NCBI RefSeq assembly: GCF_006716125.1
Contig: NZ_VFOM01000001.1
Span: 434,001 to 498,000, forward strand
Direction: 5' to 3'
Source: Homoserinimonas aerilata
GTDB taxonomy: Bacteria > Actinomycetota > Actinomycetes > Actinomycetales > Microbacteriaceae
DNA length: 64,000 nucleotides
In this document: positions 41,642-63,216 of the stretch, in pieces
Numbering within the stretch: position 1 is the stretch's first letter
Layout of the letters: every line of letters starts with the position of its first letter
Program-made: the position numbers and the translations under genes
The notes under the pieces: generated by a model
The model's input: the letters and a program-made list of their open reading frames with translations, nothing else
Database searches by the model: none
Told to the model about the DNA's origin: nothing

Positions 41642-41715
41642 CGCGGGGTGGAGCAGTTCGGTAGCTCGCTGGGCTCATAACCCAGAGGTCGTAGGTTCAA
41701 ATCCTGCCCCCGCAA
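41642..41715 (+). tRNA. initiator tRNA-fMet (anticodon CAT)
   Basis: A full cloverleaf of 74 bases can be drawn. The acceptor arms are CGCGGGG and CCCCGCA, with the C1:A72 mismatch that marks bacterial initiator tRNA. The D stem is GAGC/GCTC and the anticodon loop is CTCATAA with anticodon CAT. The anticodon stem CTGGG/CCCAG contains the three consecutive G:C pairs diagnostic of initiators. The T arm is GTAGG-TTCAAAT-CCTGC and the discriminator is A. The 3' CCA is not encoded (CCG follows). It lies just left of the accessory region. Confidence 0.97.
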
Positions 41716-41767
41716 CCGAGGCTCATTCCGGAAATGATCGAAAGATTATCCGGATATTGAGTGAAGG

Positions 41768-41810
41768 AAGGACCGGGATGGTTGAGAAACCATCCCGGTC
41801 CTTTCTTTTT
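41768..41810 (+). terminator. intrinsic terminator after tRNA-fMet
   Basis: A perfect 16-bp stem (AAGGACCGGGATGGTT at 41768-41783 with its complement at 41788-41803) has a 4-base loop and is followed by CTTTCTTTTT. It is a textbook intrinsic terminator on the plus strand, 53 bases after the tRNA, and protects the tRNA unit from the accessory region downstream. Confidence 0.9.
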
Positions 41811-41868
41811 GGCAGGAGTGCCTTGCTGGCAGGTGGCGTCTGGCGCCCGGGCGCGTTAAATGACGAAA

Positions 41869-41926: not shown

Positions 41927-43798
41927 TCAGGCTCGAGGTTCTGCCAGGGCCATGTGCGGGACCCTAGCGAGCGGCATGCCCCGTTCATCTCGTCTGCGTC
42001 TCGTTCTCGTGAGAGTCGCCGCTCGCTGAATACGCTCGGCTTCGCTGTGAAAGAACGTGGCAATGCGTCGCATATTCGAGCAAACGGCGGCGAACGCGAG
42101 AGTCATGTAGGTAGCGGCATAGCCTCGCCCGCTTCGCTTGTTTACGTTCTCGATGTCTCCGTGGAGGGGTGTCTTCAGCAGTTTGTTCGAGGTCTCAACG
42201 AGGTTTCGCATGCCAAACCAGGCACGCCACTCGTCGCTCTCGTAGGGGAGATGCTGCGCGAACTTGACTGGATGGGATTTCCCGCGGGTGTTCTTTGACT
42301 GTTCCGACTTCGGCTTCCGCCGCGACGTCGTGCCAGATGCGATGCCTTCGGTTTCAGGAAGGACCGGCGGGACTGTGATGCTCGTAACGTTCGGCAGGGC
42401 TTTCGGACGCACCAGCATTTTGTCGAAGGGGGGATAGGAGAAACGCTGAAAGCCGTCCTTGTCTCGCTTGCCCTTTGGGATCATGCGATAGGCGTCGCGG
42501 TTGGCGATGCGATGCCGAAGACTACTTTCGCCATCGCGGGCATCAGCGATCGTCTTCTTCGCTGCTGACACTTCGGTGTCGGTCGGGCCCTTTCTCCCGG
42601 TGGGATGTTGGGACTGATAGACGACTACCTCGGCGTCAGCTACCGCCTCCTCTACTTTGGCGCGTTCTCTCGTTGCGTTGACGAGGTTTTCCGGCATCCA
42701 CTCGACGTACCAACTGCCGTCCACCAGCTGCAGGTCCGCAAAGTGGCTCTGGACGCCGAGATCGTCCACTTGGTAGTCGAACACAGTGTCGACCCCGAGT
42801 CTGATCAGAGGCTCGTGGAATGTTTGGATTCTCTCGTAGTTGTACGCGCGGTCAACGACGAGCACGGGACGGACGAATCCGAGCTTCATGTGCCGGGCCG
42901 TCATCGCAGCCGCGTGACCCACGAGCCTTCCTGGAGCGTGGCATCCGATCTCGGTGAGGAGCGATGGGAAGGCGGAGCTCTCTCCCGGCCTATTCCAGAT
43001 CATGACCGCCGTCTCAAGCTCATACGCTGCCTCGTCAGTGGCGGCACCAATGCCGCCGTGACTTCCTTCCCGCCTGTAGCGACCGGCCAACGGATCCGGA
43101 TTGCTTCGCGATCCTGCTTTGCTCGCGCTGTTTCGCGAACCTCGGATGGGCGCCTTCGTCGCATCGATTGCCGTGTTGCCTTTGTACTTGTCGCGCAAGT
43201 CAGCTGGCAGCATTCGATAGGAGGCATGCACAAGCCCGTTGCAGAAGTCGTCGAGTCGTTCCTGGTTCCGAGTCTGTAGCGCTTTTGCATCCGGCGCTTC
43301 CATCGATTGAAGCAGCTTGTCGAACTGGTCGGCGTTCATGATTTTGCGCAGCGGGGTCGGTGTCGGATCCATGAGCGCGATGAGCCGATATGTGGTGTCG
43401 GAGACTCGCTTGTACCAGTGTTGGGTGTCGCCCAGGGTGGTGCGAATGCCGAGTGCGGCGAAGTGCTCCGTTGAGAAGCGGTACGCCAGGGTGCGAGCCA
43501 ACTCCATGTAGCTGACGCCGACCCCCATCTGTGCGTTCATTAGGTACAGCACGACGAGGGCGCGGAGGGGGATGATCGCCTTCTTGCCAGCGTTGCTCTT
43601 TCGCCTGTCTGAATCCCACTTGCTGAGCATCTCTGGGATGCCAGACGTGTCGGCAACTCGGGTCGCGGTGTTCAGGTGCGCTTTCGGCACGGGGTGCATC
43701 GCGATGCCCGCGTCGTATTCCCGGGAGCCCACCCCGAACGTGGACACCATACGCTCCTCGAGGTGGTCGACAGCCTTCGAGTCGGTGATCCTCGTCAT
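41927..43798 (-). CDS. DDE transposase-like protein (second gene of a recombinase-like pair)
   Basis: Protein of 623 residues that I cannot place in a named IS family. An RNase-H-type core is likely. The candidates are Asp212 in GNTAIDATKAPIRG, Asp316 in PVLVVDRAYNYER, and Glu535 in WFGMRNLVETSNKLLK, a YREK-like signature. A variable insertion holding coiled-coil sequence (ERAKVEEAVADAEVVVY) lies before the last motif. The N-terminus resembles transposase DNA-binding helices, and the C-terminus is Arg-rich (TLTRTRRRRDERG). Its ATG overlaps the stop of the upstream gene, so the two products are made together. No flanking inverted repeats were found by eye. Confidence 0.7.
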   Translation of the reverse strand: MTRITDSKAVDHLEERMVSTFGVGSREYDAGIAMHPVPKAHLNTATRVADTSGIPEMLSKWDSDRRKSNAGKKAIIPLRALVVLYLMNAQMGVGVSYMELARTLAYRFSTEHFAALGIRTTLGDTQHWYKRVSDTTYRLIALMDPTPTPLRKIMNADQFDKLLQSMEAPDAKALQTRNQERLDDFCNGLVHASYRMLPADLRDKYKGNTAIDATKAPIRGSRNSASKAGSRSNPDPLAGRYRREGSHGGIGAATDEAAYELETAVMIWNRPGESSAFPSLLTEIGCHAPGRLVGHAAAMTARHMKLGFVRPVLVVDRAYNYERIQTFHEPLIRLGVDTVFDYQVDDLGVQSHFADLQLVDGSWYVEWMPENLVNATRERAKVEEAVADAEVVVYQSQHPTGRKGPTDTEVSAAKKTIADARDGESSLRHRIANRDAYRMIPKGKRDKDGFQRFSYPPFDKMLVRPKALPNVTSITVPPVLPETEGIASGTTSRRKPKSEQSKNTRGKSHPVKFAQHLPYESDEWRAWFGMRNLVETSNKLLKTPLHGDIENVNKRSGRGYAATYMTLAFAAVCSNMRRIATFFHSEAERIQRAATLTRTRRRRDERGMPLARVPHMALAEPRA

Positions 43799-44832
43799 GA
43801 CCTTTCACCTCCACGAAGCTGGCTCCGGGCATCCTGGACGCTCGGCAGCGTGAGGTAGGGGAGGTAGTTGTGCAGGTTGTTGAACTGCTTGAATCCGGAC
43901 GCCTTGAACACCACCGAGATGTGCACCCTCTCGTCGAGGAGTTGCACCAGCCAAGTTCCCCGCAGCCGCGACGCCTTCGGGGCCGTTCCGTCGCTTCGGC
44001 TAGTGAAGTCCGAGACCAGGTTCTTCGGCTCCCGAGTCGTGCGCTCGGGACCCCACATCGGCTTCCCCGGCTCACAGCCAGAGACGGCTTCGAGAAACAT
44101 CTCCTCCCATTCAGCACGGACCGCGACCTCCCGGGGGCATCGTCCCCGGATGGCGACGGTGACGCCAGACTCGCTGGCTGTGACATCCTCCGGGAACAGT
44201 TCCCCGAGCTCGCCAGGCCAGAGGCCAGCACCCGCTGCGCCAGCGAGGAGGAGTTTCGCCTTCCGTGTCCGCTCCACCGTCCGCTGGCCGTTCGCCCAGC
44301 TGCGAAAGCCATTGGCTTCCTCGGCTGTGTACGGATCCTTTATCGTCCTGCGCCTGATCGGCTGCATCGGCTCTGGATTATCCGCCGGCGCAACCCGGTC
44401 GGCAAGCGCCACCAACACAGAGCGATAGCTCGCTCTAGAACCTTCCTCGAGTGTCAGCGATTCGCAGTAGTTGTCGATGACGCGCCTGTTGAAGACAGCA
44501 CCCGGCTCCTGCGGCAGGCCCTGAAGGTTGACGGCCCACTGCACGAAATGCGCAGCGATCTTGAGAGCTCGATTAGTGTCGAGCGTCGTACCCTCGGACG
44601 CCGCGCCCACGGCGTCCAGCACGAACACACGGATCGCCGCCCAGTCACTGGCTGGGATTCTCGGCGAGTACCGCATCAGCGGAGCGACCACCTCCTTCGG
44701 AAGTCTGCGGATGTGACGTCCGTCGAGTATCGCCGCGACAGGGATGATAAGGGAAATGTCAACTATCAGGTTCGGGTTGTCGCCCTCTGATGCGATCGGG
44801 CGGGGGGAATGGGAAAGCTTTCTTGTTGTCAT
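43795..44832 (-). CDS. degenerate tyrosine-recombinase-fold protein
   Basis: Protein of 345 residues from ATG 44832, with GAGGGGGC just upstream. A SAM-like core-binding region (RVIDNYCESLTLEEGSRASYRSVL) precedes a C-terminal domain aligning with phage integrases, from KAKLLLAGAAGAGLWPGELGEL to FNNLHNYLPYL. The box I arginine is replaced by Trp205. SRLRGTW (288-294) corresponds to HxLRHT, GFKQ (313-316) replaces the LGH motif, and Tyr323 could be the nucleophile. With box I Arg and two His lost, normal strand exchange is unlikely; it may bind DNA as a partner of the DDE protein. The family call is moderate. Confidence 0.65.
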   Translation of the reverse strand: MTTRKLSHSPRPIASEGDNPNLIVDISLIIPVAAILDGRHIRRLPKEVVAPLMRYSPRIPASDWAAIRVFVLDAVGAASEGTTLDTNRALKIAAHFVQWAVNLQGLPQEPGAVFNRRVIDNYCESLTLEEGSRASYRSVLVALADRVAPADNPEPMQPIRRRTIKDPYTAEEANGFRSWANGQRTVERTRKAKLLLAGAAGAGLWPGELGELFPEDVTASESGVTVAIRGRCPREVAVRAEWEEMFLEAVSGCEPGKPMWGPERTTREPKNLVSDFTSRSDGTAPKASRLRGTWLVQLLDERVHISVVFKASGFKQFNNLHNYLPYLTLPSVQDARSQLRGGERS

Positions 44833-44908
44833 GCCCCCTCTCTGTGCGGGCACGAAAAACGAGCCGGTCGTCCTTTCACTGTGCAATTAGCAATAGGATG
44901 CCCAGAGT

Positions 44909-44934
44909 AGCTAAATCTTGCCATACCTTTAGCT
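44909..44934. promoter_or_regulatory. inverted repeat in the divergent promoter region
   Basis: AGCTAAA (44909-44915) and TTTAGCT (44928-44934) are perfect inverted 7-mers separated by 12 bases, in the AT-rich gap between the recombinase-like pair and the divergent HTH gene. TATAAG at 44945-44950 is a good -10 candidate for the HTH gene. The repeat is placed to act as an operator for both directions, plausibly bound by the small HTH protein. Confidence 0.5.
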
Positions 44935-44971
44935 GTACCGCCTCTATAAGGTTAGAAAGTAGGCCGAGACT

Positions 44972-45376
44972 ATGGACCCAGTAGGCGATCTCCGCGCGTT
45001 CAAGTTCAAACCCCGGGACGTTGTGCAGTCACCGAAACAGTTCGGGAAGTCTGGGTTGACCCTCAAGCCGCGCGACGGGGTCGAGCGGGACGATCCAAGA
45101 TTTGGGGCAGCACAGCTCCAACATCTGATCGCCAACGCCGTCAGGGAGTCAATGCTTGCCGAGGGACACTCGCTCCGAAGCTATGTGAACCTTCTCGACG
45201 GTGTGCCCGGAATGACCTACGAGCGACTGGTTCGCATTCAACGCGGCGACACGCTCATGCAGTTCGCCGATCTGGTGGCGTGGGCAAGGCGATTCGAAGC
45301 GGTCCGTTCTCTTCTGACTGACTCGAGCACCTGGCCTGACGGTGTAGCCATCGATGAGCCCGAAGTCTCGGGTTGA
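44972..45376 (+). CDS. small helix-turn-helix protein (XRE-like)
   Basis: Protein of 134 residues. The first 40 residues are basic and unstructured. Residues 48-115 form helices with SLRSYVNLLDG and TYERLVRIQRGDTLMQFADLVAWARRF, a compact XRE-like HTH. The segment from AAQLQHLIANAVRE to RIQRGDTLMQF aligns with the minus-strand protein at 47837-48307 (AAAIQHEVALAINR to AILRGDLGMYL), so the two are paralogues. It is divergent from the recombinase-like gene, with an inverted repeat between, which suggests a controlling repressor. Confidence 0.65.
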   Translation: MDPVGDLRAFKFKPRDVVQSPKQFGKSGLTLKPRDGVERDDPRFGAAQLQHLIANAVRESMLAEGHSLRSYVNLLDGVPGMTYERLVRIQRGDTLMQFADLVAWARRFEAVRSLLTDSSTWPDGVAIDEPEVSG

Positions 45377-45525
45377 ACACAGCGTCTAGTGCATTTGGGG
45401 ACCCCAAGACGGGCAATTGCCGAAACCTGTTAAGCAGCCAGGCCCTGCGGCATCCTCGCTGGATGTCTGCTCTCGCATATCGACAACACATATCTGGCTA
45501 ACAAGCATCCGTGCGGAGTCCGTGG

Positions 45526-45602
45526 GCGCCGTCGGACTTCATGGTCCAGTAGCCGAATTGACCGACTCAGCATGCCTCAATGTGCGCAGTCGACGTGTGG
45601 CG
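45526..45602. repeat. duplicated 3' segment of the phosphoesterase-like gene (second copy at 45906-45982)
   Basis: About 76 bases here repeat 45906-45982, with shared blocks GCCGTCGGACTTCAT, GTCCAGTAGCCG and GCGCAGTCGACGTGTGG. The original lies in the 3' end of the phosphoesterase-like gene. This copy has a one-base deletion and an in-frame stop and forms the end of the hicB-like gene. The rest of 45377-45525 shows no gene. Confidence 0.85.
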
Positions 45603-45831
45603 AGATTGGAGGCTGGGCTGACGGTGCGACCTCGCCGTCGTCCAGCATGTCACGGAGGGCGGACGCCACCAAGGACTGAATCCCGGAGAGCGCCTGGCAT
45701 TCTTGGTTGGCAGCCCACGCCAGCGATGGGAACTCGGTGACCGTTCCGATGAATGTCTCGTCGACAGCGGACCAGTGCACTCGATAGCTGTAGTAGGCGG
45801 CGCTCGGTGGGGGATCCTCTGCGTTAGGCAT
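45577..45831 (-). CDS. HicB-like antitoxin-family protein with altered tail
   Basis: Protein of 84 residues. Residues 13-70 (YYSYRVHWSAVDETFIGTVTEF, SLAWAANQECQALSGIQSLV, LRDMLDDGE) follow the HicB fold: a strand-rich RNase-H-like core with the ..EFP.. and ..DGE.. landmarks. The usual C-terminal DNA-binding part is missing. Instead the last codons (HVDCAH) come from the duplicated segment at 45526-45602. No HicA toxin gene is adjacent. It overlaps the upstream gene by 8 bases as third gene of an operon. It may be an orphan or truncated antitoxin. Confidence 0.6.
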   Translation of the reverse strand: MPNAEDPPPSAAYYSYRVHWSAVDETFIGTVTEFPSLAWAANQECQALSGIQSLVASALRDMLDDGEVAPSAQPPISPHVDCAH

Positions 45832-46852
45832 CGAAGGCTGCCACTCGCTTGATCCAGCGAATCTCGGTCGACACTGCCCAGAAGAAGTCCGTCGGGTCGT
45901 TGTAGCCGCCGTCGGACTTCATTGTCCAGTAGCCGGATTGCCCGACTCGGCATGCTTCGATGGTGCGCAGTCGACGTGTGGTGTCATTGATGGTGAGCGA
46001 GGCCATCGTTCCCGGCTGTCTCGCGACGGTGCGCCGGTCGAGGTCGAAGAAGTAGTGGCTGCTCCAGGTTCGTACGACCCAGAGTCCGGCCTCTCCTCCG
46101 GTGAGCTCTGTCACCGTGTCGTCGTCGCGTGGGAAAAGCGTGAGCGCACTGGTGCGCGAGAACAGGATGCCCTGGCTCAATTCCATCGGGTCGTCCTGAG
46201 CAAGAAGGATCACTTTGGTGTCGGAGGCGTCTGGCCCCTCGCCAGTACTGACCGTCTCCTCGACAGTGACGTCGTCGTGAGTACCCAGGTAGAGCTTTGG
46301 GTGGATTCGAGCGATCGGATCGGTCGGTTCCGTGGCATTCTCGCTGAGTGGGCCGCTGCGGCCCGTGGACTGGGCGTCCAGCGGTGGCCGCGCTGGAGGC
46401 AGGAGCGGGTTGTAGCCGGCAGGACCGATGAGGATATCGGTGCCAGCCTCTGGGACTGGACCGGGGGAGTGGGCCTCATCAAGAGTGGCCAAGGTCGCAT
46501 GGAAGCGAAGCGTGGCGCGGAATCCGCGGGGAAGTTGGGCGATGTTGGTGCGCAGCCAGCACAACCCGTCCTCCGCGAGGTGCCCGTGCTCGATGGCGGC
46601 TGTGGTGGCATCACGGATGAACAGTGTTTGCTCGCGGGCACGCAGCCGCTCGTTGATCCGATCTAGAGTGGCCTCCCACGTGCGGTCTGCTGCGGAGAGT
46701 CCCAGGCGGCCGAGGATGACGAGTGCTTCGACTCCGCGCTTCCACATCGTCTCCGAGACGATTTCCAGGTGATCGAGGTCGCCGTTGATATCGCTGAGGA
46801 TGCCGATATAGACCTCGTTCTCGAGGCTCGTGGGTGGGGTTGTCGCAGTCAT
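45824..46852 (-). CDS. metallophosphoesterase-fold protein lacking metal ligands
   Basis: Protein of 342 residues (ATG 46852, ATGA overlap with the gene before). The first 135 residues follow the calcineurin-like phosphoesterase plan, but key positions differ: GDxHG reads SDINGD (20-25), GDFG reads GRLG (48-51), and GNHE reads RDAT (80-83). DGLCWLRTNIAQLPRGFR keeps the family's later framework. An extra 200-residue region of unknown fold follows, with LWVVRTWSSHYFFDLDRR and RRLRTIEACRVGQSGYW. Without the ligands it is probably a non-catalytic binding protein. Fold assignment is by motif comparison only. Confidence 0.65.
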   Translation of the reverse strand: MTATTPPTSLENEVYIGILSDINGDLDHLEIVSETMWKRGVEALVILGRLGLSAADRTWEATLDRINERLRAREQTLFIRDATTAAIEHGHLAEDGLCWLRTNIAQLPRGFRATLRFHATLATLDEAHSPGPVPEAGTDILIGPAGYNPLLPPARPPLDAQSTGRSGPLSENATEPTDPIARIHPKLYLGTHDDVTVEETVSTGEGPDASDTKVILLAQDDPMELSQGILFSRTSALTLFPRDDDTVTELTGGEAGLWVVRTWSSHYFFDLDRRTVARQPGTMASLTINDTTRRLRTIEACRVGQSGYWTMKSDGGYNDPTDFFWAVSTEIRWIKRVAAFDA

Positions 46853-47163
46853 GGTAGGTCCTTCCCGAGGTTGAGGTGTGTCGGAGTGAGCGGCTCGATG
46901 CTGGTGACGGTGGTAGAGGAGCGGCGGGTCAGAAGGACGCCAGGGATGCCGAGATTGATGTCCAGGATCATGGGCTCGCCGACGTGGCATCGCAGGACCC
47001 TCACCAGCTGGACTGGCGAGGTGTCGTTGCGCATGCGCCGTATCGCGTCATCGAGGGCGTCGGGTGTCCGGTTCAGGAGCATCCGGGTGAAGTCGATGCG
47101 GTAGCTGGCCGACTCGGTAACCACGAGGTAGAGGCCGGTGCTGCGTCCATCGAGGGAATCCAT
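46849..47163 (-). CDS. hypothetical protein, first gene of a three-gene operon
   Basis: Protein of 104 residues, not recognised. It has two strand-helix units (GLYLVVTESASYRIDFTRML, TPDALDDAIRRMRND) and a beta-rich end (LVRVLRCHVGEPMILDINLG, VLLTRRSSTTVTSIEPL). No membrane segment or signal peptide is present. Its stop overlaps the start of the phosphoesterase-like gene, so it probably works with that protein. The divergent region upstream holds a palindrome. Confidence 0.65.
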   Translation of the reverse strand: MDSLDGRSTGLYLVVTESASYRIDFTRMLLNRTPDALDDAIRRMRNDTSPVQLVRVLRCHVGEPMILDINLGIPGVLLTRRSSTTVTSIEPLTPTHLNLGKDLP

Positions 47164-47836: not shown

Positions 47837-48307
47837 CTAGTCTTCGTCCGCAGTCAAAGTGATGTAGCGATACCCGTCCAGAGGTGCGACCGGTTGGATC
47901 TTGCTCGAGTAGGTTCTCGCAAGCTGGGCGCGCCGGAATCTCACCCGCAGCACGGTCTCGAGCCCTGGGAGACATCGCTTGGCTATCTCGAACTCGTGCA
48001 GATACATCCCAAGATCACCACGCAGAATCGCCCCGATCCGGCGCTCATCGAGCCCGACCAGCCTTCCGTACGCCGCGTGTGTGATGTGGTCGATTGTCAA
48101 GATCCTGTTGATCGCGAGGGCAACCTCATGTTGAATCGCGGCCGCCTGGGCCTCACCGGCAAACTCTGCCATCCACGCCCGAGCGTTCTCGGGCATCGTC
48201 GTATCCGGATCAGGAAATGGCGCCTCGATGAAGGCCGCGTTCTCGGACTTGCCGAACTCGGCCGGCCGGTCACAGAACGACCTCGGCTTGCCATGCACCG
48301 GTGTCAT
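47837..48307 (-). CDS. helix-turn-helix protein (XRE-like), paralogue of the 44972 gene
   Basis: Protein of 156 residues. The middle (residues 50-110) is helical: AAAIQHEVALAINRILTIDH, then AAYGRLVGLDERRIGAILRGDLGMYLHEFEIAKR, an XRE-like HTH with an RGD-containing turn. It aligns with the 134-residue protein encoded at 44972-45376. The end is strand-rich and acidic (YRYITLTADED). Its 3' end faces the gene at 47326, about 35 bases away. Likely DNA-binding regulator of island genes. Confidence 0.6.
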   Translation of the reverse strand: MTPVHGKPRSFCDRPAEFGKSENAAFIEAPFPDPDTTMPENARAWMAEFAGEAQAAAIQHEVALAINRILTIDHITHAAYGRLVGLDERRIGAILRGDLGMYLHEFEIAKRCLPGLETVLRVRFRRAQLARTYSSKIQPVAPLDGYRYITLTADED

Positions 48308-48453
48308 GTGGGGAGGCTACGCCTCGCAAGGCGCTGCGTACAGGAATCGTGTAGTTGACCCTTCACTTCTGATGCGTTCCGACGGCAACGAGCAGTGGTA
48401 CGTGTAGGTGAAGTACGCACGCGATGCGATCGACATAGAGAAGGGGAGACGCG

Positions 48454-49697: not shown

Positions 49698-50762
49698 TTG
49701 GCGGAGACAACTTTGCGCTCACTCGCGCCCGACTACAGAGATACCCAACATGCCTCATACGTGCGTCATCTCACCGAAGCGCTGGAGGACTCTCGGAACA
49801 GGAACATCGCACTCACAGGGCGGTATGGTGCCGGAAAATCGAGTGTCCTAGACCGCTTTGTTGCTGATCAAAACAAGCTTGACAAAAATGTCCTGCGCAT
49901 CAGCATCAGCACGCTCGGTCCCGACAACGACGAGGACCTCACTAACCGGATCCAGAAGGAACTGGTCAAGCAGCTTCTCTACCGAGCTAAGCCTGGCGAG
50001 ATCAGACGTTCGCGCTTTGCCCGCCCCAAGCCGCTGACATGGTGGCGGGCGCTGCTCGAGTCTGCAGGCGCTACCGCGGCGATTGTGGGGCTTCTCTGGC
50101 TCTTCGGGTTGTGGCCAGTACAGGAGGTCCTCGGTGTTTCTGACCCGACGCTAGTGGCCGCGATGTTGTTTACGGTGACGTTCGTGCTGCTGGTGCTCGG
50201 TGTCGTTTGGTCGGTGCGGTGGCTTCTGGGGGATCGCCTCGTCTCTAAAGTCTCGACAGCGGGCCTGTCGATCCAGCTCGAGAAGAAGGCGGACTCGTAT
50301 TTCGACGCGTACTTGGATGAGATTGTGGCGTTCTTCGAGACAACGAATCCGGACATCGTTGTCTTCGAGGATCTGGACCGATTCGATGACGCGCGGATTT
50401 TCGACTCATTGCGAGAGCTCAACACCCTACTCAACGCGTCGGCACACTGGTCGAAGCGCAAGGATCGCCCTCTCCGCTTCATCTACGCGATCAAGGACAG
50501 CATCTTCGAGAAGATTGGCAAGCCACAGGCAGAGAAGGATCGCGCGGGCGAGTCGGGCACGCCCGGCGAAGGTGCACTCGCCGCTGAGCTCGCCAGACCC
50601 GCAGACGCACAGCAGAACTCCCAGTGGTACCGCACCTCCGACATCGCCGCTGCGGAAACCGAGCGCGCCAACAGGACCAAGTTCTTCGAGATAGTCGTGC
50701 CCATCGTGCCATTCCTTTCTCACAACAACTCACGGGACCTGCTTAGCGATTGTTTGGAGGAG
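49698..50762 (+). pseudogene. YobI-like P-loop NTPase, 5' fragment (interrupted by IS)
   Basis: First 355 codons of a gene split by the IS element at 50763. It starts at TTG 49698. It has Walker A (LTGRYGAGKSSVL), two membrane segments (ATAAIVGLLWLFGLW; AMLFTVTFVLLVLGVVWSV) and Walker B (PDIVVFEDLDRFDD). FFEIVVPIVPFLSHNNSRDLL follows at the break. The reading frame runs nine codons into the IS before a stop. Joined to 52060-54732 it gives a 1245-residue protein of the YobI family, large membrane-linked NTPases found in accessory regions and suspected of defence roles. Confidence 0.85.
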
Positions 50763-50831
50763 GGGACTGCTGCACGAATAGGTGACATCTGATCTGGCTA
50801 GCCCGGAGGGTTGGCCTGGAAGGATGGCATC

Positions 50832-51140
50832 ATGCCTAAGCCCTATCCGCGAGAGTTCCGTGATGACGTCGTGCGCGTCGCGCGGGGCCGTGAGCCTGGT
50901 GTGACGATCAAGCAGGTCGCGAAAGATTTCGGTGTCCATGCGGTGACGTTGCATAAGTGGTTGCAGCGCGCGGCGGTCGACGACGGGGTCAAGCCCGGCG
51001 AAAGCCGTGGTGAGGCCGCGGAGTTGCGGGAAGCGCGTCAGAGGATTCGTCTGCTCGAGCAAGAGAATGAGGTGCTCCGCCGTGCGGCGGCGTATCTGTC
51101 GCAGGCGAATCTGCCGGGAAAAGGTTCTACCCGCTCGTGA
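50832..51140 (+). CDS. IS3-family transposase OrfA (IS A)
   Basis: Protein of 102 residues with a helix-turn-helix (YPREFRDDVVRVARG, TIKQVAKDFGVHAVTLHKWLQ) and a leucine-zipper-like C-terminal helix (LREARQRIRLLEQENEVLRRAAAYL). OrfA binds the IS ends and regulates transposition. Its end overlaps OrfB by GTGA, and the slippery heptamer at 51116-51122 lies six codons before its stop. Start ATG 50832. Confidence 0.92.
   Translation: MPKPYPREFRDDVVRVARGREPGVTIKQVAKDFGVHAVTLHKWLQRAAVDDGVKPGESRGEAAELREARQRIRLLEQENEVLRRAAAYLSQANLPGKGSTRS
51116..51122 (+). other. programmed -1 frameshift site (G GGA AAA) in IS A
   Basis: GGGAAAA is positioned exactly as X XXY YYZ in the OrfA frame (ccG GGA AAA). 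A -1 shift there continues as RFYPLVTELAAAGIPV, joining OrfA to OrfB. IS3 elements make their active OrfAB transposase this way. Any stimulating RNA structure was not examined. Confidence 0.75.
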
Positions 51141-52024
51141 CAGAGCTCGCCGCTGCGGGGATCCCCGTGACGGTGACGTGTCGGGTATTGAAGCTTGCTC
51201 GCCAGCCTTACTACCGGTGGCTGGCTGACCCCATCACGACCAGCGAGGTAGTGCAGGCATATCGTGCGAACGCGTTGTTCGACGCGCACAAGGACGACCC
51301 CGAGTTCGGTCACCGGTTGCTCGCAGACGAGGCCCGCGACGCCGGGGAATCAATGGCGGACCGGACCGCGTGGCGCATCACGGCCGCGAACGGCTGGTGG
51401 AGTGTGTTCGGGAAGAAACGGGGCAAGAACGGCAAGAAACCCGGCCCTGCCGTTCACGACGACCTCTGCACGGTCACCGATGAGAGCGGGCGGGTCCGGC
51501 ACGAGTTCACCGCCGAGGGTCCGAACCAGCTCTGGCTGACCGACATCACCGAACACAAGACCGCAGAGGGCAAGCTCTACCTCTGCGCGATTAAAGACGT
51601 GTTCGGGAACAAGATCGTCGGGTACTCGATCGACTCGCGGATGAAGTCGAGTCTCGCTGTCCGCGCGCTGGAGAACGCCGTCCAGATGCGCGGTGACGTC
51701 GCCGGGTGCGTGGTCCACTCCGACCGCGGATCGCAATTTCGAAGCCGAAAATTCCTGCGTGCTCTATCCCGCAACCGCCTGGTCGGATCAATGGGCCGGG
51801 TTGCATCATGCGGAGACAACGCCGCGATGGAATCGTTCTTTGCGCTGCTGCAAAAGAACGTCCTCGACCATCGCTCCTGGACAACCCGCGAGCAGCTGCG
51901 CATCGCGATCGTGACCTGGATCGAACGCACCTATCACCGACGCCGACGGCAAGCCGCTCTGGGGCGTTTGACGCCCGTCGAATTCGAGACCATCATGAAC
52001 ACGACCGTCGCACTGGTGGCGTGA
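51137..52024 (+). CDS. IS3-family transposase OrfB (IS A)
   Basis: Protein of 295 residues, the catalytic half of the transposase. The DDE triad is in LWLTDITEHKT (Asp), VVHSDRGSQF (Asp) and NAAMESFFALLQKN (Glu), with the terminal WIERTYHRRRRQAALG typical of IS3. It starts at GTG 51137 inside the OrfA stop, but the functional form is likely the frameshifted OrfAB. The frame is intact. Confidence 0.93.
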   Translation: MTELAAAGIPVTVTCRVLKLARQPYYRWLADPITTSEVVQAYRANALFDAHKDDPEFGHRLLADEARDAGESMADRTAWRITAANGWWSVFGKKRGKNGKKPGPAVHDDLCTVTDESGRVRHEFTAEGPNQLWLTDITEHKTAEGKLYLCAIKDVFGNKIVGYSIDSRMKSSLAVRALENAVQMRGDVAGCVVHSDRGSQFRSRKFLRALSRNRLVGSMGRVASCGDNAAMESFFALLQKNVLDHRSWTTREQLRIAIVTWIERTYHRRRRQAALGRLTPVEFETIMNTTVALVA

Positions 52025-52059
52025 CTATAACTGTCACCTATCCGTGCAGCAGTCCCGAG

Positions 52060-54732
52060 CTTGACCTGCCCGACGGCGTCAGAGTGGAACGCAAACTACT
52101 CAGCCTCGTTGGCCGACACACCACAGATATGCGGTTGATGACCAATATCTGCAACGAGTTCGTGGTCTACGCCGAGAAACTGCTTTGGAGCGCTAACCCA
52201 GTGCCCGGTATGACCCCAGACGACCTGTTCGCCATCGTCGTATATAAGAACTTCCACGTAACTGACTTTGAGGCTCTTCCGCAGCGCGAGAGCGCTTTAG
52301 ACACTCTCGAGCGTCGTCGCCGGGACTTCGTGCAAGAGTCCATCAAGGCGCTTCAAGCGAAGCGGGAATCGATTTCTCGGGGCGAGGCGCTGAAGCGTGA
52401 GCAGGCGGATCTTGCCGCAAAGCTCGGTAGCCGACTGGATACTTTTCTCAACGCAACAGGCTCCACGCTTGTCAGCGCAACGGTTGGTGCAAAAGTCCTT
52501 GACAAGACTATGACCCAACGGCCCGCGTTCTGGAGCACAATTGCCACAGAGGGTGAGTTGACACTTGACTTCAAACACCCTGGCGGTTACCGCACCAATG
52601 TGGCCTTGGATCGAACTCAACTCGCTAAGTTATTCCCCGACGGTATCAACCCAGAGAGCTGGGGCGATTATGACACCGAGACCGCTTCCGCAAAACGCCG
52701 AGAGAGCGACGCGAAGATCGCGTCTCTTCGAGGCGCTGACTTCACAACACTCGCGCATCAACCGCACTACACCGTCAACAGTCTGACATTCTCCGATCAC
52801 ATCAACGCGACATTAAGCTCAGAGCTCGCGAGGGATTTGGTACGCCAGGGTTTCTTGAACCGCTACTACGCGGAGTACTCGTCGGTGTTCTACGGGAAAT
52901 TCTTAGGTGTCGACGTCGCACACTTTTTCCGCAACAGCGTCTGGCCAAACGAAATGGACATTCATTTCAAGTTTGCGACAGAGGGGGCGATCAAAAATCT
53001 ACTGGAACAGGCACCTGACGGGTTCACCAGCTCACGCAGTGCGCTCAACCTTGAGGTCGTCGACTACTTGCTGCAGCACCGCCGGGATCTTGCGATGCAG
53101 GTCGTTCGCTATCTTGTCACGGAGGCGGGTGAAGAACGGGACACCTTCCTGGAGGCCTTCCTGGGCGAGAAGGGCCTTCAGAGGAAGGCCCTTGTTGCAC
53201 TTCTGGCAGAGCATCCTTGGCGCGGCCTGTACGAATACCTCGCGAAACACCCAGACCGTGGACTGTTTCGTGATCCGAATCCTGGAGAATCCGATACTGA
53301 CGCGGACGTTGTCGGTTCTCTTCTCAATGCCGCGTTACTCAGCGGAAAGAACGCTGCGAAGTATGACTGGAGCAGCGCCGTACAGAGTCTGGTAGTTGAT
53401 CTACACTCACGCCTTCCGGCATTCACAAAAAAGCAGCAGTCCGCAAAGATGAAGGATCTCTACTCCTTCATCGTCCGCGCGGAAATGATCGTGCCCTCGC
53501 TGAAGGTGTTGTCCGAAGGGCTCCGCGAACGGGTCACCGAAGAGCGCCGGTACGCCCTCACCGCGGATAATCTCCGCGCCGCCATTGGTCTAGGGGCAGA
53601 AACGCCGGTGACGCTGGAACGCATTCGCCAGAGAGAAGTCGTCTGGGATCACTGCGCGAGCGCTCCCGATACCTTCCTTCGCGTTGTAGCAGAGGACAAG
53701 CACACACCTCACGTCGTGGCAGATCCCGAAGTCCTCAGAGGCGTCGTCGATGATGTGCATGACAGGTGGTCGCAGGCGCAGCTCGACACACTTCTTCGCT
53801 GGAGTTCCCCGAAAGCTGCGCTGCCCGATCTCACGCTCCTGCCCAAGATGGCTTGGCAATCGATCGCGAAGGCGCGGCGGATGGTCCCGAGTGTAGAGAA
53901 CCTCCACGCCTACACGGCAGTATTTCGTGTCGATGATTCGCTCGCGGGCGTTCTCATCACCGAAGACGGTCATGCCGCAGAGATCATCGACGTGAAGAGC
54001 AAAGCCGGAACCCGCGACGCGTTGACGATAGCTATCCTCAACGCATCCGAGCAGCTCACTCCTACACAGCGGGTATGGCTCGTGCTGAAACTCGTAGACG
54101 GCTACACGGAGGAACAGCTCGATGTAAGCGCGATTACGTCGACCGGGGACAATCTCCTCGCGAAGTTGCTCGAGGCCGAGCTAGTTGCAGACACCTTCGA
54201 GACATTTAAGCACTTCGCCACAGCCGGCTGGGAAGCAATTGCCGCGGCCTTTAGAATCTCGGCCGAAGCGCATAACTTCATCAATTCTGAGCTTGTCGGC
54301 GGCCACGCTGCGGACTTGCTTGAGGACCCGCTCGTTCCTTCGGTGCTTCAGAAGGTGCTTATCGTTCGTCTGGAGGACTTCGCTGAAGCGAACGGCGTAG
54401 CATTCCTTCGGGCGGCGGCAGCCAAGGCGAGGACCTGGCACATTCGGCTCACGATGGCCCAACTCGAGTTGATCTCAAAGCACGCCTCGGACCCGGAGGA
54501 TGTGGTCTGGCAACTCGCCAGGACGGATGACGGATTCGACGGCCCTGCAGCGATGCACATTCTCAGCCTGCTTGGCGGTGACTATGAAGGCTTTTCGCAG
54601 AGTGCTAATCACGAGTTCGAGATCGCAAAGACCGATTCGACGAATGAGGTGCTCAAGCTGCTGAGAGACGCCGACCTTGTAAGCACGCCACCGGGCGGAC
54701 GTGGCACGCGCCGAATGGTGAAGCTGTGCTGA
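52060..54732 (+). pseudogene. YobI-like P-loop NTPase, 3' fragment (after IS)
   Basis: Remaining 890 codons of the interrupted gene, in frame from the base after the right target duplication: LDLPDGVRVERKLLSLVGRHTTDMRL. This rejoins to ...SDCLEE of the left fragment. It includes TDMRLMTNICNEFVVYAEKLLW (the sensor-2-like region), a coiled coil (LERRRRDFVQESIKALQAKRE) and many helical repeats to the end (VSTPPGGRGTRRMVKLC). No point mutations break it, so only the IS disrupts the gene. A separate product could arise only from an internal start. Confidence 0.85.
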
Positions 54733-58477: not shown

Positions 58478-59362
58478 TTAGGCCGCGAGTGCGGCCGGTG
58501 TGGTCATGATGGTCTCGAATTCGATCGGCGTCAAACGGCCCAAAGCTCGTTGTCGTCGACGGCGGTGATAGGTCGCCTCGATCCAGGACACGATCGCCAG
58601 GCGCAACTGTTGCCGGGTTGCCCATCGGTACTGATTCAGGAGGTTCTTCTGCAGGAGCGCGAAGAAGGACTCCATCGCGGCGTTGTCTCCGGCGGCACCG
58701 ACCCGGCCCATCGATCCGGTCAGCCCGGCGACGCTGAGTTCATGGACGAAGCGCCGGGAGCGGAACTGGCTGCCGCGGTCCGAGTGAACGATCGTGCCGA
58801 CCGGTCGTCGACGTTGGATCGCCATCCGCAGCGCATTCACCGCCAGTTGCGAGGCCATATTGTCATCGATCGAGTAACCTACGATCCGGTTCGAGAACAC
58901 GTCCTTGATCGCGCACAGATACACCTTTCCCTCGGCGGTCCAGTGCTCGGTGATGTCGGTCAACCACAGCTGGTTCGGTCCGGCCGCGGCGAACCGGCGG
59001 CGCACCAGGTCGTCATGGACCGGAGGGCCGGCCCTACGGCTCTTGCCGCCCTTCTTCTTGACGAACACGCTCCAGATCCGTTGTTGCGAGCACACCCGCC
59101 ACACCCGCCGCTCCGACGCTTCAAAGCCGAGGTCGGCCAGCTCGTCGGCGATGAACCGATACCCGAACACCGGATCGTCCCGATGCACATCGATTGCCGC
59201 GTTGATCAGCTGGGCCTCGTCCCAGTCCCGATCCGCCACAGGCCTGCGCAACCATCGATAGAACGGTTGCTTGGCGATCTTCAATACCCGGCACGTCACC
59301 GCGACCGGCACCCTGATTGGGGCGCCGGTCGCGGCCAGCTCGCGGACGAGCGGGTAGATCAT
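58478..59362 (-). CDS. IS3-family transposase OrfB (IS B)
   Basis: Protein of 294 residues (ATG 59362 overlapping the OrfA stop by ATGA). The DDE residues are in LWLTDITEHWTAEG, IVHSDRGSQFRS and NAAMESFFALLQKNLL, with the IS3-type end RLTPIEFETIMTT. It is clearly related to OrfB of IS A but differs along the whole length. The frame is intact. Confidence 0.93.
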   Translation of the reverse strand: MIYPLVRELAATGAPIRVPVAVTCRVLKIAKQPFYRWLRRPVADRDWDEAQLINAAIDVHRDDPVFGYRFIADELADLGFEASERRVWRVCSQQRIWSVFVKKKGGKSRRAGPPVHDDLVRRRFAAAGPNQLWLTDITEHWTAEGKVYLCAIKDVFSNRIVGYSIDDNMASQLAVNALRMAIQRRRPVGTIVHSDRGSQFRSRRFVHELSVAGLTGSMGRVGAAGDNAAMESFFALLQKNLLNQYRWATRQQLRLAIVSWIEATYHRRRRQRALGRLTPIEFETIMTTPAALAA

Positions 59363-59649
59363 TTTGGGCTGCGCAGGACCCCTTGCGACAAATACGCTGC
59401 CGCCCGCCGCAGCACCTCGTTCTCCTGCTCCAGCAACCGGATGCGTTTCTTCGCTTCCCGCAGCTCGGCATGTTCGGTCGAGCTCACCCCGGGCTTGATG
59501 CCGTCGTCGACTTCGGCGATCTTGACCCACCGCTGGACGCAGGACTCGGAGATCCCGAAGTCTTTCGCGATCTGAGCGAACGACGCCTCACGGCGCCGCG
59601 CGATCGCGACGACATCGTCACGGAACTCCTTCGGAAACGCTCTCGGCAT
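59359..59649 (-). CDS. IS3-family transposase OrfA (IS B)
   Basis: Protein of 96 residues (ATG 59649) with HTH (FAQIAKDFGISESCVQRWVKIA) and leucine zipper (LREAKKRIRLLEQENEVLRRAA). CCCAAAA at 59362-59368 (minus strand) lies as C CCA AAA immediately before the TGA, a perfect slippery site. A -1 shift there enters OrfB as MIYPLVRELA. Confidence 0.92.
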   Translation of the reverse strand: MPRAFPKEFRDDVVAIARRREASFAQIAKDFGISESCVQRWVKIAEVDDGIKPGVSSTEHAELREAKKRIRLLEQENEVLRRAAAYLSQGVLRSPK

Positions 59650-59963: not shown

Positions 59964-60362
59964 TCAAGGCACAGGGATGAGGTGACAGACCTGGGAGGGT
60001 GTGCACTCGCTGGGATTCAGAGTCTTCGCGCGGTCGCCGAGCTGGCGTACCTGGGCAAGGAGAGCGGTGAGCTCGGCGATGCGTTGCTCCAGCTCGGAGG
60101 CATGCTGTGCGAGCACTGCGGCGACATGCTCGCACGGTGCACCGCTGCTCTCGCGGGCCGAGACGACCTCGACGACTTCGGCCAAGGTCAGCCCGGCAGC
60201 CTGCGCAGCCTTCACGAACGCCAACCGGTCGACCGCACGGTGGTCGTACTCCCGGTAGCCCGACGCCTGGCGAGCCGGCATCGGCAACACGCCAGCGCTC
60301 TCGTAGAAGCGGATCGTCTTGGCCGTCACGCCGGCCGCGGCGGCCAGATCTCCGATAAGCAT
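59964..60362 (-). CDS. merR: MerR-family mercury-responsive regulator
   Basis: Protein of 132 residues. The winged HTH is standard (LAAAAGVTAKTIRFYESAGVLPMP, GYREYDHRAVDRLAFVKAAQ), followed by a dimerisation helix. Cys77 (GAPCEHV), Cys120 (PSECTP) and Cys126 (SQVCHL) correspond to the three Hg-binding cysteines of classical MerR. It is divergent from merA and shares an operator with it. It should repress and, with Hg(II), activate by unwinding the long spacer. Confidence 0.9.
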   Translation of the reverse strand: MLIGDLAAAAGVTAKTIRFYESAGVLPMPARQASGYREYDHRAVDRLAFVKAAQAAGLTLAEVVEVVSARESSGAPCEHVAAVLAQHASELEQRIAELTALLAQVRQLGDRAKTLNPSECTPSQVCHLIPVP

Positions 60363-60376
60363 GCTCCACCATAGCC

Positions 60377-60408
60377 TTGACCTTCCCCTGCGCTGGAACG
60401 TCTACCGT
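60377..60408 (+). promoter_or_regulatory. MerR-type promoter and operator of merA
   Basis: TTGACC (60377-60382) is the -35 box, and TACCGT or CTACCG about 19-20 bases later (60402-60408) is the -10. Between them is the dyad ACCTTCC-CCTGCGCT-GGAACGT (60380-60401; arms match at 6 of 7). The over-long spacer bearing a dyad is the hallmark of MerR-family control. Confidence 0.8.
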
Positions 60409-60444
60409 TCGATGACGACGGACCTGCGTACAAAGGAGAGCACC

Positions 60445-61815
60445 ATGGACAAGCACGACCTGATTGTCATCGGGACCGGCGGCGCGGCCATGGCCGCGGG
60501 CATAGAGGCGCGCTCCCGCGGCAACAGCGTCCTGCTCCTCGAGCACGGCCCGGTCGGCGGGACATGCCTGAACATCGGCTGCGTGCCCAGCAAGAACCTG
60601 CTGGCCGCTGCAGGACAACGCCACCGTGCGGCCAGTAGCCCGTTCGAGGGCATTTCGACGAGTGCCGGCACGGTCGCGCTGAACACCTTGATGGAGCAGA
60701 AGCAGTCGCTAATCGACCACCTGCGTCAGGCCAAGTACACCGACGTTGCCGAAGCCCACGGCTTCCCCATCCTGCGCGGGCACGCACGCTTCATCGACGA
60801 GCACACCCTGCAGGTGGACGACCAAACCTTCCGCGCCGAGCGGGGGTACGTCGTGGCGACCGGGGCTGCGCCGCATGCCCCCGATCTGCCGGGCCTGCGC
60901 GAGGTGGCCTACCTGACCTCGACCACGGCGATGGAGCAGCAAGACCTGCCGGCCTCGATGGTGGTGGTGGGAGCCGGGTACGTCGGACTGGAGCAAGCCC
61001 AGCTGTGGGCGCACCTTGGGGTGAAAGTCACGCTCGTCGGTCGTTTCGCACCACACGCTGAACCAGAGGTCGCCGCAGTGCTGCTCGGAGTATTCCAAGA
61101 CGAGGGCATCACCGTGATTCAGGAGCGCGCCACCGAGGTGCGGGCCACCAGAGACGGCGTCGAGGTGAGAACCCGGAGCGAGAAGTACGCGACGGGCGAG
61201 CGACTGCTCGTTGCGACCGGCCGATTCCCTGACACGTCCGACCTGGGTCTGGGCATCGCTGGCGTCACCACCGACGCACGGGGGTTCATCGTTGTCGACG
61301 AGAACCAGCGGACCACCAATCCTCGGATCTTCGCCGCCGGAGACGTCGCCGGCGTGCCACAATACGTCTACGTCGCCGCCCAGACAGGACGTGTCGCCGC
61401 AGCTGGTGCGCTCGGCCAGCCGTCAGCAGTGGACTACCGGGGGCTCCCCGGCGTCACTTTCACCACTCCACAGATCGCCACCGCCGGACTGACCGAGGAC
61501 CAAGCCGTTGCCGCTGGGCACACCTGCGAATGCCGCGTCCTAGGCGCACAGGACATCCCACGGGCACTGGTCAACCAGGACACCCGCGGTGTCCTCAAGC
61601 TGGTCATCGACGCCAACACCCGCAAGATCCTCGGCGCGCACGCCGCTTTGGACGGTGCAGGCGAGCTGATGCTCGCAGCGACCTACGCGATCAAGTTCGG
61701 CCTTACCGTCGACGACATCGCCGACACGTGGGCCCCCTACCTGACGATGAGCGAGGCCCTGCGCATCGCGGCCGGCCTATTTCGTTCCGCCCTGCCCACA
61801 AGCTGCTGCGCCTAA
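60445..61815 (+). CDS. merA: mercuric reductase
   Basis: Flavoprotein of 456 residues of the pyridine-nucleotide disulfide oxidoreductase family. FAD binding is by VIGTGGAAMAAGIEA, the redox pair is Cys41-Cys46 in GGTCLNIGCVPSK, NAD(P)H binding is by VVVGAGYVGLEQAQ, and the terminal vicinal pair Cys454-Cys455 (TSCCA) delivers Hg(II). It reduces Hg(II) to volatile Hg(0) with NADPH. The N-terminal NmerA domain is absent. ATG 60445 has AAAGGAG upstream. No merT, merP or merB accompanies it. Confidence 0.95.
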   Translation: MDKHDLIVIGTGGAAMAAGIEARSRGNSVLLLEHGPVGGTCLNIGCVPSKNLLAAAGQRHRAASSPFEGISTSAGTVALNTLMEQKQSLIDHLRQAKYTDVAEAHGFPILRGHARFIDEHTLQVDDQTFRAERGYVVATGAAPHAPDLPGLREVAYLTSTTAMEQQDLPASMVVVGAGYVGLEQAQLWAHLGVKVTLVGRFAPHAEPEVAAVLLGVFQDEGITVIQERATEVRATRDGVEVRTRSEKYATGERLLVATGRFPDTSDLGLGIAGVTTDARGFIVVDENQRTTNPRIFAAGDVAGVPQYVYVAAQTGRVAAAGALGQPSAVDYRGLPGVTFTTPQIATAGLTEDQAVAAGHTCECRVLGAQDIPRALVNQDTRGVLKLVIDANTRKILGAHAALDGAGELMLAATYAIKFGLTVDDIADTWAPYLTMSEALRIAAGLFRSALPTSCCA

Positions 61816-63156: not shown

Positions 63157-63216
63157 GTGGGCATCGCCGTAACGAGCGCATCGATTCCGATTAGCTCCGC
63201 CGCAAAAGGCGGGCAC

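Follow-up and report, generated by a model that had tools for sequence, protein, structure and literature searches.

A probable family of tRNA-homing DDE transposons with a catalytically incomplete tyrosine recombinase-fold partner as candidate target selector

The window, a stretch of 64,000 nucleotides from Homoserinimonas aerilata, raises the question of what two proteins of different recombination chemistries, a DDE transposase (623 aa; 41927–43798, minus strand) and a tyrosine recombinase-fold protein (345 aa; 43795–44832, minus strand), do together beside a tRNA gene. The two ORFs overlap through ATGA at 43795–43798 on the minus strand, as the initial annotation had stated. It is considered that the pair is probably the mobility module of a DDE transposon family homing to tRNA genes, with the dead recombinase acting as the suggested selector of the target.

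Predicted folds of the two proteins

The triad D212/D316/E535 and the large insertion proposed for the DDE protein were both recovered, with the three residues being invariant across 33 aligned sequences. Among 57 DDE ORFs, D212 was kept in 52 (four gaps, one G), D316 in 55 (one gap, one S) and E535 in 55 (two gaps). The predicted structure and the alignment show a predicted RNase H fold in which a long insertion separates the second D from the E, and the protein also has an N-terminal helical region. A Foldseek search with the whole model returned nothing at E 0.001 or below, while further examination of the model with Foldseek pointed to the Tn5 transposase fold. The motif Y(2)R(3)E(6)K is the signature of IS4 superfamily transposases and was found here with R531 in 55/57, E535 in 55/57, K542 in 52/57 and Y or F at position 528 in 41/57. 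The window DDE protein fell into no family of Pfam or NCBIfam, three of the 33 relatives matched DDE_Tnp_1 with E values no higher than 1 (the best being 5.5e-4), and searching PDB sequences with a profile of the DDE protein gave no matches. As the window proteins had no match in Pfam, NCBIfam, PHROGs or PADLOC (E up to 1), naming was based on alignments and folds. In viral contigs, 13 stretches fitted a pattern and none of these encodes a relative. Going by its model, the DDE protein is a Tn5-fold transposase with a conserved triad.

With the start at 44832, the partner has Tyr323, Ser288-Arg289-Leu290-Arg291 and Trp205 in place of the box I arginine, and both histidines are absent, in agreement with the initial annotation. 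The catalytic set R-K-H-R-H/W-Y is incomplete throughout the family: in the adjacent partners, of which 49 of 50 could be aligned (one row unaligned; R, H, R, H/W and Y positions scored), the box I Arg was present in 21/50, the box II Arg in 49/49 and the Tyr in 33/49, with the box II His and the box III His/Trp in 0/49 each. Further copies of the partner gave 0/19 and 0/19 for the two His positions. High-scoring structural neighbours of the partner model were XerA, the Tn1549 integrase and Cre, and the alignment with XerA extended over 246 residues, which is most of XerA. Structure prediction, suggested earlier as a check, yielded both folds, and the partner is, as modelled, a XerA/Cre fold without the catalytic set.

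A small divergent gene (44972–45376, plus strand), a putative regulator found in the same place in many elements, lies beyond a possible operator, detected by eye as a perfect 7-bp inverted repeat at 44909–44934 with the arms AGCTAAA (44909–44915) and TTTAGCT (44928–44934). The gene and the repeat between the divergent genes had both been described before, but the HTH label found no Pfam support in the window copy; Streptomyces counterparts in the same place gave HTH_3 matches. This arrangement bears on a very unlikely alternative, in which the tyrosine recombinase-fold protein would be a dead-recombinase transcription regulator of the operon, comparable to MrpR, YopR and SroF of SPbeta-type phages, with no targeting role. 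The operon already has the small putative regulator with its inverted repeat, the partner gene overlaps the transposase gene, and XerA, the Tn1549 integrase and Cre score higher as structural neighbours.

Element borders, cargo and tRNA targets

The neighbouring tRNA-fMet (CAT) gene named in the initial annotation was confirmed at 41642–41717 (plus strand), and reading of the junction showed it intact despite the insertion. The left target-site duplication, ACCGA (41715–41719), begins at the discriminator base A73, with its right copy at 82082–82086 outside the window. It is followed by the left terminal inverted repeat GGCTCATTCCGGAAAT (41720–41735, plus strand), to which the right end, ATATCCGGAACCACCC at 82066–82081 (outside the window), is complementary at 12 of 16 positions. 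A subterminal second copy of the end repeat, ATTATCCGGATATT (41745–41758, plus strand), was seen by eye at the tRNA-side end and none was seen at the far end. A terminator-like hairpin with a T-run lies at 41764–41811 (plus strand), within the tRNA-side end of the element. An initial scan with a 46-mer and 20-mers for the opposite end gave a convincing copy for L018 only, among the matches listed; the far end was missed because it is 40 kb distant and matches over only about 16 bp. It was located by comparison among congeners, in which the empty site of G080 was set against the filled site of G241. The three genes, previously taken as a compact unit, represent just one end of an element of 40,362 bp, of which 41720–64000 lies in the window and the remainder runs on to 82081 in window numbering.

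The elements of the family span 5.5–40 kb and carry variable cargo, with the trio forming the mobility end. Within the window the cargo includes a YobI-like ATPase gene and the next large gene, weakly resembling the Tmn defence family (49698–54729, plus strand), a pyridine nucleotide-disulphide oxidoreductase (60319–61812, plus strand) and an SBF-type transporter (62161–63216, minus strand). There is also a transposase inside the element with rve and HTH_21 domains (58481–59530, minus strand), which we take to be of IS3 type. In the 6.6-kb element G626, five ORFs of at least 90 aa were predicted with a GC-bias script, encoding the DDE protein, the tyrosine recombinase-fold protein, a type II methylase, a GmrSD/HNH restriction enzyme and AbiD. 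Some of the accessory genes aboard the elements are related to defence or metals.

Across the family, 47 of 55 loci lie at a tRNA 3′ end, with 15 isoacceptors targeted and the target varying by subfamily. The end bearing the DDE gene points toward the tRNA 3′ end, and the tRNA is kept whole. Eight of the 55 loci had no tRNA within 420 bp, three of these having one further off, and the Streptomyces plasmid copies L140 and L141 had no tRNA across 13.5 kb of surrounding sequence. Terminal inverted repeats with target-site duplications were detected in 21/49 loci, at a level reached in three or fewer of 200 shuffles, in a search limited to starts at most one base from nucleotide 73 (an earlier search used seven starts); a convincing far end was missing in the other 28, eight of which had less than 12.1 kb of flank. 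The duplications are of 5–7 bp, from tRNA nucleotide 73, and are bordered by the inverted repeats. In 17 of the 21 the duplication begins at nucleotide 73 as set by the script. For G774 and G190 a 5-mer one base further on was extended by eye to 7 bp and then checked, for G047 a 6-mer begins one base earlier at a C common to both sides, and for G276 nucleotide 73 was placed by eye one base off the estimate of the script. The terminator-like hairpin was present in 17/21 tRNA-side ends compared to 53/630 control windows.

As tRNA 3′ ends are classic sites of tyrosine integrases, an ordinary integrase island has to be weighed. In such an island the integrase-fold protein would carry out the recombination at the 3′ end of the tRNA, across a short overlap region, and the role of the DDE-like protein would be accessory. 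The frequent retention of the Tyr and the box II Arg agrees with this, yet this reading is judged highly improbable: both the box II His and the box III His/Trp are absent from all scored partners, the DDE triad is kept and inverted repeats flank the duplication. In addition, related elements whose 16-nt ends are identical differ in the 5-mer at the junction, a variation incompatible with a fixed attP overlap.

A domesticated host system merely located beside tRNA genes had also been suggested. The element is a single copy in the H. aerilata genome, which would fit, but the suggestion is scarcely credible given the empty and filled sites among congeners, the differing tRNA targets, the variable cargo and the apparent serial insertions, with the ends and duplications speaking against it at the level of the family. 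It is the other earlier suggestion, that of an undescribed mobile element, which the exact ends, target duplication, empty site, linkage of the genes in many genomes and tRNA targeting uphold, and a search of the open-licence PMC literature (no preprints) turned up no account of elements of this kind.

Role of the partner and significance

Examination of other genomes, as had been proposed, showed that 50 of the 57 distinct DDE ORFs have the partner gene alongside, which is more than chance, and the partner was doubled in tandem in 18/57. Two full-size DDE ORFs (G774 and G076) and a shorter one (G132) had long upstream flanks with no partner ORF, and the partner may therefore not be required or may have been lost; G076 has a 56-aa fragment of it, and the partnerless G774 still has ends at tRNA-Leu. 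Trees of the two proteins, built from the 43 of 49 loci with known tRNA that had a partner ORF nearby, followed the target tRNA equally with 16 changes each, and 24 of 40 splits were shared.

These data leave room for an unlikely alternative in which the DDE protein alone recognises the tRNA end, through its N-terminal domain or large insertion, with the partner being an accessory for transposon-end binding or for DNA bending in synapsis. The N-terminal helical region and long insertion, the DDE tree tracking the target as well as that of the partner, and the ends of G774 are consistent with it, and an accessory role would suit the two palindrome-like repeats seen by eye at the tRNA-side end, spaced by about 21 bp, with one at the far end. 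However, the diverse tRNA targets despite similar ends, together with a partner kept phylum-wide and sometimes doubled, suggest a separate specificity module. TnsF also offers a precedent, established by experiment, of a protein with this fold choosing the target (PMC10293859).

The tyrosine recombinase-fold protein as DNA-targeting partner is thus the best inference, based on fold, linkage and analogy. Of the earlier proposal of a dead integrase as targeting partner, the catalytic incompleteness stands family-wide, but the targeting remains at this strength, as both trees track the target equally. Retention of the catalytic Tyr in so many partners is more than a purely DNA-binding role would demand and counts against this explanation. 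Under the selector reading, the partner, or the tandem pair in some subfamilies, would bind a particular tRNA gene at its T-arm/acceptor end, and perhaps also the asymmetric end of the element, positioning the transposase for staggered cuts 5–7 bp apart at nucleotide 73. The transposase would then join the element ends in one orientation, and repression of the operon is the probable function of the small divergent protein.

On balance, it is suspected that these elements form a separate phylum-wide bacterial transposon superfamily, with a Tn5-fold transposase steered by an ancient and permanently inactivated tyrosine recombinase, single or in tandem, which recognises individual tRNA genes and fixes the cleavage position at the discriminator base. 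Most of what is known of site-specific DDE transposition comes from Tn7-like elements and their multi-protein machinery, whereas two overlapping genes seem enough here for insertion to occur at a single tRNA-gene nucleotide. If true, the superfamily would be an independent, ATPase-free route to such transposition with an exchangeable protein selector. Were the partner the selector, its exchange should redirect the transposase, which would offer a simple insertion tool for actinobacteria. How a dead recombinase turns into a targeting device becomes a directly testable question, and some tRNA islands usually ascribed to integrases would be DDE transposons with defence and metal-related genes.

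Comparison with known systems

Genomic islands and ICEs of tyrosine integrases at tRNA 3′ ends share the chromosomal address, similar size, cargo and serial accretion with these elements; here the tyrosine recombinase-fold protein has an incomplete catalytic set, and the ends are of DDE transposon type. From the IS4 superfamily and Tn5 (IS50) the elements differ in the lack of a Pfam or NCBIfam match for the window protein, the partner, the large cargo, the tRNA-end targeting and duplications of 5–7 bp, compared to 9 bp for Tn5. Tn7 with TnsD and the CRISPR-associated transposons homing to tRNA genes also make oriented, harmless insertions beside a conserved gene, but use multi-protein machinery with an AAA regulator and have a protein or guide RNA as selector.

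The eukaryotic Dada transposons are DDE elements with 6–7 bp duplications at fixed positions in tRNA or snRNA genes and tandem insertions, similar to those described here (PMC3706591). They insert inside genes, the U6 and U1 families are without terminal inverted repeats, and the Dada sections of that source describe no partner protein. Tsy resembles the present operon in combining a tyrosine recombinase-fold selector with an HTH gene; it forms circular intermediates and requires the catalytic activity of both of its tyrosine recombinases, and the passages on Tsy describe no DDE protein, which is present here (PMC10293859).

The Tn6022-like Tn7 transposons have a dedicated target selector, TnsF, with an inactivated tyrosine recombinase domain (PMC10293859). 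TnsF is without the catalytic chamber (PMC10293859), whereas the partner model covers most of XerA. Neither TnsC nor TniQ was among the five ORFs of G626, the other elements being scanned in part, and the transposase here has a Tn5 fold with a tRNA end as target. The two systems have in common a DDE transposon, target duplications and an inactivated tyrosine recombinase-fold selector, here a suggested one (PMC10293859); the presence of such a protein in the operon is shared at the level of fold class.

The transposase gene and its partner

The gene of the putative Tn5-fold DDE transposase (623 aa; 41927–43798, minus strand) is joined by an ATGA overlap to that of its partner, a 345-aa protein with a tyrosine-recombinase fold (43795–44832, minus strand). 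The pair lies beside tRNA-fMet (41642–41717, plus strand), so that the window coordinates bear out the arrangement described in the initial annotation. A small gene of 134 aa starts at 44972 and is divergent from the pair. No matches to Pfam, NCBIfam, PHROGs or PADLOC were obtained for the three proteins at E up to 1. Protein database entries numbered 62 for the DDE protein and 21 for the partner (the window's own copy counted in both), the named ones being mostly 'hypothetical protein'. The D212/D316/E535 triad proposed earlier was upheld, as all three residues, together with R531, were invariant across 33 aligned sequences. Among 20 aligned partners, R289 and R291 were invariant and Y323 nearly so, with the box I arginine being variable.

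The supposed coupling of the two genes was also seen in other genomes. Within the loci collected by that stage, 57 distinct DDE ORFs, each of at least 433 aa, were surveyed; a same-strand upstream partner ORF was present for 50 of these, and 18 of the 57 had at least two. The stop-to-stop frames of partner and DDE touched or overlapped in 48 of the 50, with gaps of 42 and 976 bp in the remaining two. Of the seven partnerless ORFs, one has a partner fragment truncated by the record end (L010), two start at a record end (L042 and one L055 ORF) and one is preceded by another DDE frame (the second L055 ORF). For the other three, in genomes G132 (457 aa), G076 (656 aa) and G774 (613 aa), no partner ORF was found in 8–18 kb of upstream DNA, despite a 56-aa partner fragment in G076.

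Judging by its residues, the partner is CATALYTICALLY incomplete across the whole family. The box I arginine was present in 21/50 adjacent partners. In the 49 rows that aligned (one of 50 did not), box II held arginine throughout and never histidine, box III held neither histidine nor tryptophan, and the tyrosine was found in 33. Both histidines were also missing from all 19 aligned further copies. At least two tyrosine-recombinase-fold genes occur in the subfamilies found at tRNAs for Ser, Pro, Arg and Ala (loci L152, L153 and L155–L161), and the catalytic histidines are absent from them wherever aligned; a heterodimer of these proteins is conceivable where multiple copies occur. The gene order partner, DDE, divergent HTH gene is conserved on Streptomyces plasmids at 23–25% DDE protein identity. 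Two such linear plasmids (L140 and L141) carry the divergent regulator, tyrosine-recombinase-fold and DDE genes, and in one of them a type I-E CRISPR locus adjoins the trio.

Insertion at tRNA ends

A convergent tRNA 3' end was located within 420 bp downstream, at distances of 109–290 bp, for 47 of the 55 DDE ORFs (among the 57) with at least that much sequence. The targets were Leu(cag) (21), Met (7), Leu(gag) (4), Ser(gct), Ser(cga) and Pro(ggg) (2 each) and nine others (1 each). The tRNA was more distant in L018, L013 and L153, and none was found within the sequenced stretches examined of L041, L055, L140, L141 and L150. With a density of 0.030 tRNA genes per kb (1.66 Mb of collected, tRNA-enriched stretches), such adjacency would be expected by chance in about 1% or less of cases. 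The 47 loci are related and are thus not independent events; nevertheless, their targets and duplications differ. Among 398 genomes of the bacterial family, 80 had a match to the DDE profile, weak partial ones counted, as did 13 of 396 sampled phylum-wide.

In the congener G080, matches to window positions 41726 and 85183 sit approximately 100 bp apart, and the window genome therefore has approximately 43 kb of extra DNA at this place; congeners G143 and G241 have approximately 20 and 16 kb, respectively. The comparison of empty and filled sites proposed in the initial annotation defined both the ends and the target-site duplication. In G241 the left junction reads CCCGCA of the tRNA, ACCAA and GGCTCATTTCGGAAAT, and the right junction ATTTCCGGAACCACCC, ACCAA and AGCTCATCAGAG. 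The empty site of G080 reads CCCGCA, ACCAA and GGCTCATCAGAG, with one base differing from G241 after the duplication. The next seven host bases in G080 (GGCTCAT) resemble the left end of the element by chance, and are missing from the DNA right of the G143 element. The window element spans 41720–82081 (40,362 bp; window numbering is continued past 64000) and is flanked by a copy of ACCGA on either side; the left copy begins at A73, the discriminator base, of tRNA-fMet. Between the right duplication and conserved host DNA, outside the element, lie a further 3.1 kb or so (82087–85183, outside the window), missing from the empty site and possibly the remains of an older insertion.

Far ends were searched at 49 tRNA loci as a second copy of the 5–6 nt from nt 73 (±1 base) following an inverted left end, with 200 shuffled left ends per locus as control. 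In 21 loci at most three shuffles equalled the true left end, with approximately 0.7 loci expected; the other 28, eight of them with less than 12.1 kb of flank, gave none or weak candidates. An earlier search of 31 loci from seven starting points gave identical junctions in ten. The elements measure 5.5–40.4 kb, and their duplications of 5–7 bp begin at nt 73 (17/21 as computed, 4/21 by eye), regardless of whether this base is an A, a G (tRNA-Ser) or a T (tRNA-Gly). Five Cryobacterium loci, whose far ends were not found, share one 16-nt end next to four different 5-mers, a pattern that favours host-derived duplications over an integrase overlap. By eye, left-end-like sequence lies past the right duplication in G145, G006 and G626, as though earlier insertions had been displaced outward by more recent ones.

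Element anatomy and cargo

In the first 10 delimited elements, the DDE gene ended 202–286 bp from the tRNA-side end, except in L018 (2022 bp), where an insertion is present. The partner was next to the DDE gene in nine called gene sets and was found by profile in the tenth (G080, locus L049); clustering recovered the small divergent gene in seven of the ten. Its profile matched 45 ORFs among the collected loci, some loci being counted twice, and these include a second, diverged copy in the window (47840–48316, E 1.3e-12). By eye, two palindrome-like repeats approximately 21 bp apart were noted at the tRNA-side end and one at the far end. A terminator-like hairpin lay at most 160 bp from the tRNA-side end in 17/21 elements, compared to 53/630 control windows. 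It should also be noted that an 88-bp repeat (45522–45608 and 45902–45989; 87–89% identity, 380 bp apart) has its second copy near the end of a 388-aa ORF (45824–46990) and its first adjoining that ORF.

Cargo varies between elements. A scan of 10 of the 43 called ORFs of the window element gave a YobI-like ATPase gene, an IS3-like transposase, an oxidoreductase and an SBF transporter within the window, and a P450-like protein, ResB and a P-type ATPase past it. The YobI-like ATPase gene and the large-protein gene after it (together 49698–54729) show weak likeness to the Tmn defence system. At tRNA-Ser, the 6.6-kb element of G626 encodes a DDE protein, its partner, an EcoRI-type methylase, a GmrSD/HNH restriction enzyme and AbiD as its five called genes. 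Over its final 8 kb (74042–82086, outside the window; locus L079), the window element is 97% identical to the G143 element, compared to about 75% at the transposase end, and modules seem to be exchanged between elements.

Proposed mechanism and related systems

Taken together, the comparisons show a family of DDE-type transposons targeting tRNA ends, with a linked, catalytically incomplete tyrosine-recombinase-fold protein. The DDE protein would perform the chemistry, the partner would select the tRNA end and the small divergent protein may act in regulation. Target labels group on the DDE and partner trees alike (16 changes against a shuffle mean of 23 and minimum of 20; 200 shuffles), and the trees have 24 of 40 splits in common. 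As both trees track the target and share splits, sequence alone favours neither protein as the reader of the target. The initial suggestion of a dead integrase acting as DNA-targeting partner stands as to the incomplete catalytic set, and a targeting role for the partner is the probable reading.

No report of this family was found in the literature searched (open-licence PMC articles). In eukaryotes, Dada DDE transposons are described within tRNA and snRNA genes with duplications of 6–7 bp (PMC3706591). The nearest precedent is TnsF (PMC10293859). This protein of Tn6022 has an inactivated tyrosine-recombinase domain and is required, along with TnsA, B, C and TniQ, for comM insertion; Tsy, in the same source, employs an active relative. 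Judged by the features tested, the present family is not a Tn7-like element, although in its working it probably resembles a TnsF-guided transposon.
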